This document shows positions 13,124 to 49,107 of a stretch of DNA of 49,107 bases, piece by piece. The notes under the pieces are model-generated. The model did no database searches and was not told the DNA's origin. It saw nothing but the letters and a program-made list of their open reading frames with translations. Each line of letters starts with the position of its first letter. Positions within the stretch are counted from its first letter, which is position 1. The stretch comes from Planctomycetota bacterium (lineage in GTDB: Bacteria; Planctomycetota; Planctomycetia; Pirellulales; Pirellulaceae): assembly GCA_027619595.1 (NCBI GenBank), contig JAQCHP010000019.1:1-49107 (forward strand). Direction: 5' to 3'. Both the position numbers and the translations under genes were made by a program.

Positions 13124-14602
13124 TTATGGCCCGTCGAGCGTTACGACGGGGTCAAACATTTGCATGTTACGGTCAGACTTGCGTCGCGAAGGACAATTGT
13201 CGATCTGCGCAGCGACGCAACGAAGCAAAAATTGCGAACTCACGTGATCAGCGGATCTTACCTGAGGGAGGCCCTGCAATGCACTATTGGCCGCGGCAAA
13301 TGACCCCGCTTCAAAGGCGCACAGTGCTTCCTCATATTGGCGGATCCAGAGCACCATAGCATCGGTGGCAAACTCTTTACCGACCGAACAGAGGCCATGT
13401 AGGTCAACTGGATTCTCGATTCCGGGTACCCGGCACGTAGCGATGCGATGCGTTAGGAAACTTGCCGGCAGGGCATTGCGCGTTGCTTGACTCAAGACGA
13501 TTGGCGACTGAATTACCTTAGTGGCCGATTCGAGTCGACTGGCAATATTGACTGTAACTCCACGCGGCCTGTACTTGGGACGGCGTTGACTCCCGGAATT
13601 GCCGACAAGCGCAGATCCGGTATGGATTCCGCAACCTATGCGCAACGGGCGTTGAATTTGGTTGTGCCAGCGCCGACTCAGACTTGGCAGTTGCCGCTGC
13701 ATCTCCCACGCAGCGCCGCACGCTTTCTCTGCATGGTCTGGCTGCGGCAAGGGAGCATTCCAAATCGCTGATAACCCATCCCCATAATAGTCGACGATGA
13801 CCCCCTCCTGGTCCATGACACAGGCTGTCAATAGGTCCATTAATTCGCTAAGTAAATCGTAAGTAGTCCGCGGCGGGACAATTGCAGTAACCCGAGAGAA
13901 TTCGCGTAGGTCGCAAAAGAGGACAGTCACAATTTGTTCGCGCGCTGTGAGGAGTCGCGGATTACGTTGTAACTCCTGGACTAACTGGGGTGCGAAAGCC
14001 TGCTCGAACAGAATGCGAGTCTTGAGCGAGCGCTCTTCGGCCTCAAGTCGCGCCACCCCGCTTCCTAGTGACTCCGCTACCAACTGCAACCAAAGTGCCT
14101 CCAACGGCCGAATTTGGCGGCGGCGATTGTCGTTGCGGACGGCCCGGATTCCATAGACAATACCCCACAGTGAACCATCTTGCTGCAAAATGGGCACTGC
14201 TATTGCTGCGGCTCGCAGGGACTCCCGCCCCGTCGACACTGATCCATGCACCTGGCACGATGAACGGCTCTGCTCGACCTCCATCAGCAGGTCATAATCT
14301 ACTGCCTCTCGGAAATCGGGAGACCGGTGATATTCAGCCACGGTACGCCATTTCACATGGTCGCGTTGCAGAATGAACCCCGCGTCGAGTCCACCGGGCT
14401 CGCAAACGGCATGCGCGGCATCGGCAAAAAAATCTGTACTACCTGCCACTTTGCGCTGCAGGCTCGCCAGGGAATTGAACCAATGACCAATCGTAGCTGC
14501 ACTAGGAGCGCGTCCCAGCGTGGAAAAATCAACGTGCGTGCGTTGAATTGGCGGCGCCTCGGTCGCGGAAATCAGCTTGTCGGTCAGGTTTTCCGCAAAC
14601 AT
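13124..14602 (-). CDS. GAF domain / class III adenylate-guanylate cyclase
   Basis: 492 aa. A GAF-like sensor region covers about residues 40-185, then a short helix, then a class III cyclase homology domain (about 222-400) and a C-terminal helical tail. The metal-binding aspartates are D231 (VLFCDLREFSRVT) and D275 (DYYGDGLSAIWN). The transition-state Asn/Arg pair lies in TVNIASRLES. The residue that normally selects adenine (an Asp before TVN) is a Val here, so ATP versus GTP use is open. Related planctomycete proteins often carry an N-terminal FHA domain; none is visible here. It converges on the SDR gene. Confidence 0.83.
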   Translation of the reverse strand: MFAENLTDKLISATEAPPIQRTHVDFSTLGRAPSAATIGHWFNSLASLQRKVAGSTDFFADAAHAVCEPGGLDAGFILQRDHVKWRTVAEYHRSPDFREAVDYDLLMEVEQSRSSCQVHGSVSTGRESLRAAAIAVPILQQDGSLWGIVYGIRAVRNDNRRRQIRPLEALWLQLVAESLGSGVARLEAEERSLKTRILFEQAFAPQLVQELQRNPRLLTAREQIVTVLFCDLREFSRVTAIVPPRTTYDLLSELMDLLTACVMDQEGVIVDYYGDGLSAIWNAPLPQPDHAEKACGAAWEMQRQLPSLSRRWHNQIQRPLRIGCGIHTGSALVGNSGSQRRPKYRPRGVTVNIASRLESATKVIQSPIVLSQATRNALPASFLTHRIATCRVPGIENPVDLHGLCSVGKEFATDAMVLWIRQYEEALCAFEAGSFAAANSALQGLPQVRSADHVSSQFLLRCVAAQIDNCPSRRKSDRNMQMFDPVVTLDGP

Positions 14603-15745: not shown

Positions 15746-16558
15746 TCATTGGGGTGCTCCCCACAGTTTGTCCGCCGTGGCCAAAACGTCAGCCGGTGAA
15801 AGTCGATTGATAATGCGTAGCGGTTGCGCCATGTCCCGCACTGTGCCATCGCCGTCCACAAACAAAATCGTGGGCGCGTTTGTGTCATCCCGATGTTCAC
15901 CTGCTCCAGGATGAATCATTCCCAATGCCTTGGCCATCGACTGATCGGCATCGGAAACAACGATCAAATGAGGAAAATCAGCTTGATTCATGGTAGCCAT
16001 TTCGACAGGGTCATTCGAAACGACTATCACGCGAACTCCACGCTTTGTGAACTCGACATGCTGCTTTTCGAGCTCCCCGAGCTCAATCATGCAGACCATT
16101 CACCAACGCCCGCGAAAGAACACAAGGATCGTTGAGGCCGCCGACGTCAGGTCTTGATTCGTAAATTCCAAACCGCTGGACAACTGGGTGGAAAACGCCG
16201 GCACGGCACTGCCCACTCGAACAGGCCCATGATAGACGGGAGTGGAGACCCCAACACCCAACCCGTACCACTCCAAACCGCACAGGACCACACTACCCGC
16301 ACATAAAATTCCACGCCAGACGTTCGGCCGGACATACAGCATCCCCACCATGGTTACCGCGCCTAGCGTCGACAGCCCAGGGATGTACCACGGGGTGACG
16401 AGCACCTTCTGCTTTAACTGCCAAAAATACAGCGCCGGTCCAACAACAAAGCAGAGAGCCCCTGCTAATAGCACCAGTGAAGGCATTCGTCGAAATACGT
16501 TCGAGCTCCTTTGCGTTCGCTCAGGTGTCGATTCGTTCGAAGGTAGCGCTGAGTCCAT
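15746..16558 (-). CDS. Candidate selenoprotein: membrane-anchored redoxin with UxxC active site (in-frame TGA at 16100-16102)
   Basis: One frame of 271 codons has a single internal stop, TGA at 16102-16100. Before it: a basic N-terminus, three membrane segments (about 27-46, 57-76, 82-103) and a thioredoxin-fold start ending VFFRGRW152. After it: M-V-C156-M-I-E-L, then VRVIVVSNDP and NAPTILFVDGDG, typical of AhpC/TSA-like redoxins. The TGA sits where the family has the first Cys of CxxC, so decoding as Sec gives U153-x-x-C156. No other stop occurs. Positive-inside charge puts the redoxin domain outside the membrane. The ATG at 16558 is preferred over a TTG at 16576. The alternative is a TGC/TGT to TGA nonsense mutation leaving a 152-aa stub. 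Confidence 0.75.
16068..16086 (-). promoter_or_regulatory. Candidate bacterial SECIS hairpin
   Basis: Downstream of the TGA the minus strand reads TT-GAGCTC-GGG-GAGCTC-GA: six Watson-Crick pairs plus a U-G and a U-A pair, with a GGG apical loop. Fifteen nt separate the TGA from the core stem and 21 nt separate it from the loop. Bacterial SECIS elements are known to lie just 3' of UGA inside the coding region, with G at the start of the apical loop. The hairpin encodes E-L-G-E-L, common after CxxC in redoxins, so part of the symmetry may come from codon choice. Confidence 0.55.
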
Positions 16559-16605
16559 ATCCAAGTTACTTCCCAAGGTGCATCAAGCGTTTGCTTCCAC
16601 ACGTG

Positions 16606-16669: not shown

Positions 16670-18028
16670 TCAATCGGGTTCGACTTCTCGTAATTTACGA
16701 TACAAGGTCTTTCGGTCAAGTCCGAGGATCCTCGCGGCTTGTGACCGATTCCCCCCGGCTACATCCAACACGTGTTGGATGTAGCGGCGTTCAAGTTCCT
16801 CTAGACGCACTAGTTCGAGCGGATCATCGCCATCGATTAAAACGCGGCCCTTACGAAATTGCCTAACTTTATCTGGTAGATCGGCGATATCAATACGATC
16901 AGTACGCGCCAGCGCTACCGCTCGCTCCATCACGTTTCGTAACTCCCTCACATTTCCGGGCCAATTGTAAGCCAGCAGTCGCTCGGCAGCCTCTGGCCGT
17001 ATCCCTCCAATCGGCTTGCTCATCAAGTTCGCAAATTCCTGCAAAAAGTGTTGAGCAATCGTCAACACGTCAGAACCGCGGGCCCGAAGCGGTGGCAACT
17101 CGACTTGAATGACATTGATTCGGTAGAATAAGTCTTCACGAAACTGGTTGGCTTCAAGTGCCTCTTCGAGGTCGCGGTTGGTAGCGGAAAGTAGTCGAAC
17201 ATTGATCGGAATTTCGCGATCTCCGCCCACAGGTCGCACCGTACGCTGCTCGAGAACTCGCAGTAGCTTCACTTGCATAGACAAGGGCAACTCGCCGACC
17301 TCATCCAGAAATAGAGTGCCGCCATCGGCTTGAAGAAACAATCCTTTACGCTCGACTCGTGCGTCGGTAAAGGCCCCCTTCGCATGTCCAAATAACTCAC
17401 TTTCCAGGAGAGGTTCGGGAAGTGCCGCGCAGTTCACTGCCACGAACGGCCCCGTGTTTCGCGGTCCTCTGCGGTGAATCCAACGCGCTACTAACTCCTT
17501 TCCGGTACCACTCTCCCCAGTCAACAAAACCGAACTATTGGCTGGCGCGATCTGGGCGAGCTGTTGATAAATGGCCAACATAGCTGGACTATTGCCGAGG
17601 ATCTCGCCAAAGTGGCTGGCATGGTCGACCGTTTCCGTCAACCTGCGTACTTGTTGCTGCAATCGCTGGTGGGCAATTGCGCGGTCTAGTGAGACGGTGA
17701 GTAGGTCCATTTCCAACGGCTTCGTAATGAAGTCGTATGCTCCCGCCCGTAACGCGGCCACAGCGGTTTCCATGCTGCCAAAGGCAGTCATCACGATCAC
17801 AGGCAGTCCGGGGTGTGATGCGGCAACTTGCGCGCACAATTCAAGTCCCGACGTGCCGGGCATACGCACATCGGAAACGACAACATCCACGCTATGCATG
17901 TTCAGATACTGCAAGGCTGAGGCTGCGGATGTACTCGACGCAGCTTCATACCCTCGCAAGCGCAGGTCGGTTTCCAGAAGTTCACACATTCCTACGTCAT
18001 CGTCTACAACAAGCACAGAACCGCTCAT
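16670..18028 (-). CDS. Sigma54-dependent response regulator (NtrC/AtoC family)
   Basis: 452 aa with three domains. The receiver (about 1-120) has D9/D10, phospho-acceptor D53 (VVSDVRMP) and K103. The AAA+ domain has Walker A GESGTGKE (171-178), the sigma54-contact loop GAFTDA (218-223) and Walker B GGTLFLDEVGEL. A Fis-type helix-turn-helix (GNRSQAARILGLDRKTLYRK) closes the protein. It opens sigma54 promoters after phosphorylation by its partner kinase. Its ATG overlaps the kinase stop (ATGA at 18028-18025). Its targets are unknown; no sigma54 site was recognised nearby. Confidence 0.93.
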   Translation of the reverse strand: MSGSVLVVDDDVGMCELLETDLRLRGYEAASSTSAASALQYLNMHSVDVVVSDVRMPGTSGLELCAQVAASHPGLPVIVMTAFGSMETAVAALRAGAYDFITKPLEMDLLTVSLDRAIAHQRLQQQVRRLTETVDHASHFGEILGNSPAMLAIYQQLAQIAPANSSVLLTGESGTGKELVARWIHRRGPRNTGPFVAVNCAALPEPLLESELFGHAKGAFTDARVERKGLFLQADGGTLFLDEVGELPLSMQVKLLRVLEQRTVRPVGGDREIPINVRLLSATNRDLEEALEANQFREDLFYRINVIQVELPPLRARGSDVLTIAQHFLQEFANLMSKPIGGIRPEAAERLLAYNWPGNVRELRNVMERAVALARTDRIDIADLPDKVRQFRKGRVLIDGDDPLELVRLEELERRYIQHVLDVAGGNRSQAARILGLDRKTLYRKLREVEPD

Positions 18029-19497
18029 GCAACGTCTCCTGGCGGTAAGTGGATGTCAAATTGAGCGCCATGACCCAATTTGCTGGTCACGTGAATTGAT
18101 CCGCCATGCTCACGTACGATGCCGTAGGCAATGGATAGGCCAAGTCCAGTTCCCGAACCAACATCTTTCGTCGTAAAAAAAGGTTCAAACAATTGTCCCT
18201 GCAATTCGTGTGCGATTCCGGGCCCGTTGTCGGCCACGCTGATGCAAATCGATGACGCGTTCGCCGAAAGCTCACCGCTAATTGGCACGCGTGGTACTCG
18301 ACATGCGGCAAGCTCGACGGTTCCACCTTGCGGCATCGCTTGAATCGAGTTCATGACCATATTCGTCACGACTTGCTGGATTTGGCCCTCGTCGAACCAC
18401 GCGGGAATCTCCTCGTGGAGCGATGTCGTTGTGATCGTCACATGCTGTTTCTCAGCAAGTGGCTGCAAGAGCTGACTCGTACGAAGCAGCAAGTTTCGAA
18501 TATCGCCCTTCCTGTGCTGCGGTGGACGTTGTCGAGCAAAGTCGAGTAATTGCCGCACGATGGCGGTGATGCGGTCCGCTTCCGACTTGATGGTTTGTGC
18601 ACTCGCCATAACTTCCTCGCTGTGAAGCTTTCCATTTGAAATCAAGGCGGCTCGTCCAGCGATAATATTGAGCGGAGTTCCAAGTTCATGCGCGATGCCC
18701 GCCGCCAGACGTCCGACCGTCTTGAGACGATCGGCGTGGCGTAATTGATCCAGGGCCGTAGCGCGCTGTTCGATCTCTTGTAAAATGGTCGTGTGCTGGG
18801 CGGCGAGCCGTTCGCACATTTCATTGATCGCACGCGCCAGCTGACTGAGTTCATCCCTTCCCGGGAGATGCAACGGACGGGAAAAGTCACCCGCACCGAC
18901 GCGCTGGGTCTTAGCAATTAACAACTCCAACGGGTGCGCAACCCAGTACCAACCAGCAAGGTAGGAAGTCGACAAACAGACGACCGCAACGCTCGCAATC
19001 GTAGCGAATGCCATCCAGGCCGTTCGTCGCGTGTGATTATCAACTGTGGCTAAAGACTCAGTAATCTCCAGGCCGCCGTGCCAAGGTGCGTCGCGCAGCG
19101 GCAACGGCAGGTACGTATGTAACGACCGGTGGCCGGCTGCGTCTGTCCCCAAAACCGATACCAATTCACCCACCGTCGTCCCCATCCAATGTTGGGGTGG
19201 AACTGCGGGTCGGTACCGTGACTGCGCCTGGCTATCAAACCAAACCCAACGCACTTGCAACAAACGACCGCTCTGGAGGCTCAATCCGTCTAACACCCGT
19301 AGTACGCCGTCTACCCCGTCAACTCGCCAAGCAGCCTCCAGTTTACCTTGAAGTTCCGTCGCTAGGTGTCGAGCATAATTCTGCTGCTCCGTCTCAAATT
19401 CGGCATAAATGGCCCGAACTGACAAATAGCTACCCACCGCAGTCAGAACAACTACGGTTGCCAGCAGGGCCAGCATGACTTTAGCGGCAAGTTTCAT
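18025..19497 (-). CDS. Membrane sensor histidine kinase
   Basis: 490 aa. TM1 at about 7-29, an extracytoplasmic sensor loop (30-158), TM2 at about 162-185, a HAMP-like linker (ARAINEMCERL), HisKA with H270 in GIAHELGTPLN, and the HATPase region with N box (NMVMNSIQAMP), G1 (DNGPGI) and G2 (GTGLGLSIAYG). It should phosphorylate the response regulator translated from the overlapping next gene. The architecture resembles ZraS/NtrB-like kinases. A GGAA precedes the ATG closely. The signal sensed is unknown; the sensor loop has no recognisable ligand domain. Confidence 0.92.
   Translation of the reverse strand: MKLAAKVMLALLATVVVLTAVGSYLSVRAIYAEFETEQQNYARHLATELQGKLEAAWRVDGVDGVLRVLDGLSLQSGRLLQVRWVWFDSQAQSRYRPAVPPQHWMGTTVGELVSVLGTDAAGHRSLHTYLPLPLRDAPWHGGLEITESLATVDNHTRRTAWMAFATIASVAVVCLSTSYLAGWYWVAHPLELLIAKTQRVGAGDFSRPLHLPGRDELSQLARAINEMCERLAAQHTTILQEIEQRATALDQLRHADRLKTVGRLAAGIAHELGTPLNIIAGRAALISNGKLHSEEVMASAQTIKSEADRITAIVRQLLDFARQRPPQHRKGDIRNLLLRTSQLLQPLAEKQHVTITTTSLHEEIPAWFDEGQIQQVVTNMVMNSIQAMPQGGTVELAACRVPRVPISGELSANASSICISVADNGPGIAHELQGQLFEPFFTTKDVGSGTGLGLSIAYGIVREHGGSIHVTSKLGHGAQFDIHLPPGDVA

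Positions 19498-49039: not shown

Positions 49040-49107
<68 letters not shown>

Follow-up and report, generated by a model that had tools for sequence, protein, structure and literature searches.

Several groups of described proteins resemble the gene reported here. ResA and TlpA carry an extracytoplasmic domain on a membrane anchor, SelL selenoproteins have a UxxU motif (where U is selenocysteine, Sec), and peroxiredoxins share a catalytic set of Pro, Thr/Ser, Cys and Arg. Prx-like and redoxin selenoproteins with a UxxC motif have long been known (PMC2398784; PMC13188914, Table 1). In addition, some fusions of Sec-containing redoxins to other domains were described in the GOS survey (Prx-like 3/Unknown_3 and others; PMC2398784), and candidate selenoproteins of planctomycetes are tabulated in PMC4807772, a table that may hold a relative of this gene.

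Our analysis concerns a window of 49,107 nucleotides (the whole stretch of DNA analyzed; contig JAQCHP010000019.1 of the Planctomycetota assembly GCA_027619595.1), in which an earlier note had proposed a membrane-bound UxxC selenoprotein. The best explanation of the locus as a whole, to which we assign a probability of about 93%, is hairpin-guided insertion of Sec at the TGA 16102-16100 of a UxxC redoxin that would be anchored by three transmembrane (TM) helices, face outward and work through a Sec153-Cys156 cycle. Sec decoding of the TGA is strongly supported by sequence comparison, both the membrane anchor and the way it is oriented are predictions, and the catalytic cycle would follow that of the UxxC/CxxC class. 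The features of the locus are as follows.

15746..16558, minus strand: putative selenoprotein gene, 270 aa, with three predicted TM helices, a UxxC redoxin domain and an ordinary TGA end
16100..16102, minus strand: in-frame TGA, codon 153, probably read as Sec, first residue of UxxC
16091..16093, minus strand: codon of Cys156, second residue of UxxC, Cys in 51/51 members of the family
16068..16086, minus strand: SECIS-like hairpin, 8-bp stem UUGAGCUC/GAGCUCGA, apical loop GGG, loop 21 nt past the TGA
16250..16483, minus strand: three predicted TM helices, residues 26-49, 58-76 and 80-103
15749..16225, minus strand: redoxin domain, about residues 112-270, predicted peroxiredoxin fold

The minus-strand frame 16558-15746 has 271 codons including the final stop, that is, 270 residues, and its sole internal stop is the TGA at 16102-16100 (codon 153), in the context VFFRGRW-U-MVC-MIEL. 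This confirms the earlier claim that the frame is broken once, with the 271 codons counting the final stop. The frame terminates with a second TGA at 15748-15746 (-), and its start codon is ambiguous, a TTG at 16576 being likewise in frame. Mechanical ORF calling returned two pieces, 16100-16576 (158 aa) and 15746-16099 (117 aa), just the split that had been foreseen for automatic annotation. In the joined protein, two Pfam matches span the TGA, AhpC-TSA at residues 115-242 (E 2.9e-17) and Redoxin at residues 115-244 (E 2.8e-14). The upstream neighbors on the same strand are a sigma-54-type response regulator and a histidine kinase (16670-19497), and the downstream neighbor is a cyclase (13124-14602). 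ARAGORN found no tRNA within the window; a tRNA match at 49040-49107 (+) is clipped by the window end.

The source genome, a draft of 281 contigs, contains all the components of Sec decoding that the earlier note had proposed to look for. The selA (535.9 bits) and selB (346.6 bits) genes adjoin on contig 118 and selD (385.4 bits) lies on contig 151, all three scoring above their cut-offs, and a tRNA-Sec with anticodon UCA was detected by Infernal on contig 82 (65 bits; L001), where ARAGORN missed it. Among 23 AhpC-TSA matches in this genome, an in-frame TGA is present only in the window gene, and one other match has a TAG. We also identified three homologs of the formate dehydrogenase alpha subunit, one of them above the cut-off, with no in-frame stop in the matched stretch; L153 and L154 (G000:C259, C27) are such homologs.

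In 199 genomes of the taxonomic family, a near-full-length match was found, among the matches listed, only in the window genome and in G057. The G057 homolog, located in the public record SXOA01000010.1 (a MAG of Planctomycetaceae), is 46% identical over residues 28-264 and 44% across the whole alignment, and its only internal TGA is at the same codon as in the window gene. A first scan of genome contigs gave no relative and a second gave only the G057 record. In plasmids, 11 records matched, all of them distantly and as peroxiredoxin-like sequences, and in each case over less than 80% of the query.

Wider, overlapping samples were taken from the order (396 genomes), the phylum (392) and the class (397), with no more than six first-look candidates scored per genome. 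Relatives were drawn from the best 30 loci per search, using profiles built mostly from TGA members (the query profile A3 combined six TGA and three Cys members). After copies of the same gene were merged, at least 51 distinct members that include the N-terminal membrane part were extracted, which are kin to one another, so that the counts are not independent. In the same column, 46 of them have TGA and five a Cys codon, a figure for this sample and not the TGA share of the whole family, as further matches, most with one TGA and some without a stop, lie outside the 51. The placement of the TGA at the first Cys of a CxxC motif, as originally proposed, is thus borne out, and the second Cys of the motif (Cys156) is kept in every member. 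The 46 TGA members come from one genome each and extend down to 17% identity to the window protein, with both halves conserved. The earlier note had named homologs ending at the same place as separate proteins as a point against Sec; instead, 46/51 members read through the TGA and 5/51 have Cys. Four loci were left out of the 51: L038 has Cys, a single TM segment and the soluble type of build; L090 has TGA, and its match begins only at profile position 77; L045 is a brief stray hit that lacks the motif; and L110 (TGA) has the motif KGDWUPFC, which falls outside the motif pattern.

On the unrooted tree of the members, the window gene pairs with L098 (50% identity; support 99/90), and the distribution of Sec and Cys needs three changes, in either direction. 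In a weak test for a conserved operon partner, among the regions of 20 relatives and the window, no neighboring family besides the gene itself was common to more than 5 of the 21 loci. The crude gene finder used for this comparison cuts the gene at its TGA, and even the gene itself was linked across no more than 7 of the 21.

Other redoxins with in-frame stops were observed alongside this family. The genomes of the relatives also encode a second UxxC redoxin group without the three-TM part, with the motif RSAxWUxxC and an in-frame TGA (L028, L032, L040, L042, L057, L113, L114, L116, L117, L118 and L120), several members of which start, by eye, with a signal-peptide-like sequence. Altogether, TGA was found in 16 of 35 distinct motif-fitting redoxins outside the 51, namely this group plus L029, L034, L037, L049 and L090. 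The excluded L110 (G1018:C2:10635-11270) is a further TGA membrane redoxin with a seemingly longer membrane part. L031 (G015:C315:1655-2050), a UxxC redoxin with a Sec TGA, has an in-frame TAG six codons on, where relatives have Gln, presumably through an error or decay.

We used selB to compare the occurrence of the TGA form with that of the Sec machinery. A selB gene above the cut-off is present in 43 of 47 TGA genomes, 2 of 5 Cys genomes and 5 of 28 genomes in which no family match reached the search threshold. The latter set represents 28 of 32 genomes picked from the top of the no-match lists, and G644, which carries the TGA locus L090, was left out. Taken together, the proportions are 43/47 in TGA genomes versus 7/33 in the others (p 9e-11), a contrast inflated by kinship, since the comparison genomes come from few families. 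The TGA genomes without selB above the cut-off (G885, G715, G703 and G542) are all drafts, 84-92% complete, and may either be incompletely assembled at this gene or have lost the Sec machinery recently.

Bacterial SECIS elements are described by a loop of 3-9 nt, a stem of 4-16 bp, a G in the first two loop positions, a spacing of 16-37 nt and a minimum free energy of at most -7.5 kcal/mol, according to the rules given in PMC13188914. The hairpin in the window falls within these ranges, with a loop of 3 nt that has G first, a spacing of 21 nt, 8 bp and -10.0 kcal/mol. The signal shows across the family and not in the window alone. Members were compared with their synonymous recodings. In a narrow test (spacing 19-26, loop 3-5, a range set after the wide-range result had been seen), the hairpins of the 46 TGA members sum to -490.8 kcal/mol, versus -293.4 kcal/mol (sd 20.1) in the recodings, which corresponds to a z of -9.8 and was reached by none of 100 null sets. 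For the five Cys members the same test gave a z of -0.1, with 41 of 100 null sets as low. All 18 TGA members lined up from the window clade keep GAGCU 5' and AGCUCGA 3' of a loop starting with G, and 6-8 of the 8 pairs form; the three Cys members of this clade use other codons, and 3-6 pairs form.

Codon conservation past the TGA provides an independent sign beside the folding test, by sequence comparison. Over codons 154-165, the window gene and L021 have the same codon in 8 of 10 identical-residue columns, as compared with 27 of 97 elsewhere (p 0.002). Several results weaken the hairpin evidence. The wide-range search gave a weak signal (mean z -0.77 in the 46 TGA and +0.41 in the 5 Cys members, with 12 recodings each; -7.5 kcal/mol passed by 44/46 and 2/5, respectively), and its best hairpin for the window is a different one (spacing 30, loop GAAAA, -17.0). 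The downstream RNA of the window, when folded alone, shows no unusual stability (z -0.4 to -1.2), and of three window stretches tried, only one has the hairpin in its minimum-energy fold. Two-sided change is confined to the loop-closing pair (4 cells), and this association taken alone is not significant (Fisher p 0.11).

These data allow us to weigh other explanations of the TGA. In a draft of 281 contigs, and at a codon where five members have Cys, one could suspect a sequencing error over a sense codon, or a recent nonsense mutation that has left a pseudogene. We regard this as highly improbable, because 46 of the 51 members have the same TGA, even at 17% identity, and conserve both halves, the TGA form co-occurs with selB, and the codons past the TGA are more constrained than elsewhere; an error in the source genome cannot explain a TGA that is shared with 45 other genomes. 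Similarly small is the chance that the locus encodes two proteins, a three-TM protein that stops at the TGA and half a redoxin with a start codon of its own. ORF calling does give two ORFs, and the second begins with an ATG (M154) right after the TGA, but Met directly follows the TGA or Cys codon in only 2 of 51 members, the window gene included. Moreover, the five Cys homologs are single unbroken chains, and the cut would land inside a thioredoxin-type fold.

A genome-wide reassignment of TGA, for example to Trp, would also account for readthrough in the window gene, and we find it the hardest of all to credit. TGA terminates both the window gene and the upstream regulator gene (16670-18028), only the window gene has it among the 23 AhpC-TSA matches of the genome, and the five members without TGA have Cys at this place, not Trp. 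Sec insertion at the TGA remains our preferred reading, and the Sec part of the earlier proposal is strongly supported at the sequence level by the same-column TGA and Cys codons, the sel genes, the hairpin and the co-occurrence with selB.

The N-terminal part of the protein was modeled together with the redoxin domain. The AlphaFold2 model, based on a 51-row alignment (pLDDT 93, pTM 0.85), has long helices at residues 26-49, 58-76 and 80-103, followed by the redoxin fold. The three TM segments claimed in the earlier note thus correspond to three long helices in the model, but the hydropathy scan of the window protein detected only two, the middle helix being under the threshold used. Among the 51 members, the scan predicted three segments in 30, two in 16, one in 4 and four in 1. 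An excess of K+R at the predicted inner side (the N-terminus plus the second loop) was found in 45 of 51 members, with 4 ties and 2 against. As positive charges favor the N-terminus and second loop inside, the redoxin domain is placed outside, and the proposed outward orientation is upheld as a prediction. A transmembrane electron relay was considered and set aside, as there is no conserved Cys column in the membrane part (the best column has Cys in no more than 5 of 51 members); for the same reason this part looks like an anchor rather than a relay.

The redoxin domain has a peroxiredoxin fold in the predicted model. Its fold match is 3hjp (Bcp4; Z 22.3, 2.2 A over 156 residues), and the best fold and profile matches overall are BCP-, AhpE- and AhpC-type peroxiredoxins. 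All 51 members match PF00578, with UxxC in 46 and CxxC in 5. The view that a thioredoxin fold begins before the TGA and is completed after it holds insofar as the predicted fold spans the TGA, but it is refined to a peroxiredoxin fold without a peroxiredoxin active site. In profile alignments with 2cx3, 2ywn and 1xvw, the peroxiredoxin Pro aligns with Arg149, Thr/Ser with Sec153, the peroxidatic Cys with Cys156 and Arg with Pro229, which means that three of the four catalytic positions differ and Cys alone is kept. The aligned residues are conserved among the members (Arg149 in 49/51, Sec/Cys153 and Cys156 each in 51/51, Pro229 in 50/51). ResA has a cis-proline before the strand facing its CxxC motif, to which Pro229 may or may not correspond. 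As modeled, the site is a thioredoxin-like UxxC upon a peroxiredoxin scaffold.

Since the UxxC site sits on a peroxiredoxin scaffold with its catalytic positions replaced, we prefer a thiol:disulfide reductase. By analogy, the best reading of the protein is a periplasm-facing, Sec-dependent thiol:disulfide (or peroxide) reductase, where disulfide or peroxide as substrate is a guess. The Sec protein might instead be a peroxidase, that is, a membrane-anchored peroxiredoxin-like enzyme and not a thiol:disulfide reductase. The fold and the BCP-, AhpE- and AhpC-type closest matches fit such an enzyme, and Sec is well fitted to reducing peroxides. We nevertheless hold this to be unlikely, if far from negligible, given the replacement of Pro by Arg149, of Thr/Ser by Sec/Cys153 and of Arg by Pro229 in nearly all members.

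For the preferred thiol:disulfide reductase, we propose the following mechanism. SelB and tRNA-Sec, steered by the hairpin that closely follows the codon on its 3' side, would insert Sec at the TGA 16102-16100. The three N-terminal TM helices would fix the protein in the inner membrane so that its redoxin domain faces outward. Sec153, as the attacking residue of the UxxC pair, would reduce an oxidized substrate (disulfide or peroxide) and then form a selenenylsulfide with Cys156, which an electron donor would reset.

The comparison with described families places this protein near several of them and inside none at the level of NCBIfam models, as the window protein scores below the cut-off of every model. 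The SelL/SelL-related model NF040769 is the sole NCBIfam model matched by all 51 members at E <= 0.001, yet the window protein scores 36.4 bits against its cut-off of 120 bits, and the family has UxxC, with Cys as the second residue throughout, in contrast to the UxxU of SelL. ResA, TlpA and DsbE have a CxxC-type motif in common with the family, ResA structures match the family profile, and the extracytoplasmic domain on an anchor known for ResA and TlpA is also predicted for the window protein. They differ in that Sec and three TM helices are found here and the best fold matches are peroxiredoxins; the window protein scores 30 bits against the ResA cut-off of 170 bits. With the BCP/PrxQ and AhpE peroxiredoxins the family shares the fold and, in the column of Cys156, the peroxidatic Cys, whereas their catalytic Pro, Thr/Ser and Arg are all replaced.

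The known UxxC selenoproteins are the nearest in kind. Like the Prx-like thiol:disulfide oxidoreductase selenoproteins (PF00578; Prx-like 1 in PMC2398784; PMC13188914, Table 1), the window protein is of the AhpC-TSA type with putative Sec first in UxxC. The three-TM anchor predicted here is unmentioned in the accessible portions of these two sources, as compared by description. With the Redoxin family selenoprotein (PF08534, UxxC; PMC13188914, Table 1, HEU0032618.1) it shares, again by description, a Redoxin match and the motif. The GOS fusions likewise join a Sec redoxin to a further domain, but according to PMC2398784 these domains carry, as a rule, at least one conserved Cys, in contrast to the TM region here. 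No three-TM redoxin selenoprotein was found in the portions of PMC2398784 and PMC13188914 at hand or, by titles and the starts of abstracts, among the open-access papers searched. The suggestion of a new three-TM architecture stands within that literature, but as a phylum-wide family and not as a peculiarity of one gene. We file the family as a membrane-anchored subfamily of the Prx-like UxxC selenoproteins found across Planctomycetota.

With this family, the UxxC selenoproteins would gain a membrane-anchored, outward-facing form. Because ORF calling cuts such genes in two and the window protein stays below every NCBIfam cut-off, a family seen in dozens of genomes has probably been annotated in pieces. 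Naturally occurring Sec and Cys relatives (L021 beside L053-L055; L082 beside L075) suit experiments on why Sec is kept. As the formate dehydrogenase alpha homologs of the source genome are without an in-frame stop, such redoxins may be some of the genes for which its Sec machinery is worth having, in a selenoprotein survey that covered the AhpC-TSA and formate dehydrogenase families. Tentatively, and at slightly less than even odds, we suggest that Planctomycetota are characterized by the membrane-anchored redoxin as a module that mostly has Sec and in a few lineages Cys. It may be one of several genes that maintain Sec decoding in these genomes, and would use a hybrid site for Sec-based reduction on the outer side of the inner membrane, in which the place of the catalytic Thr in a peroxiredoxin fold is taken by the Sec of UxxC.
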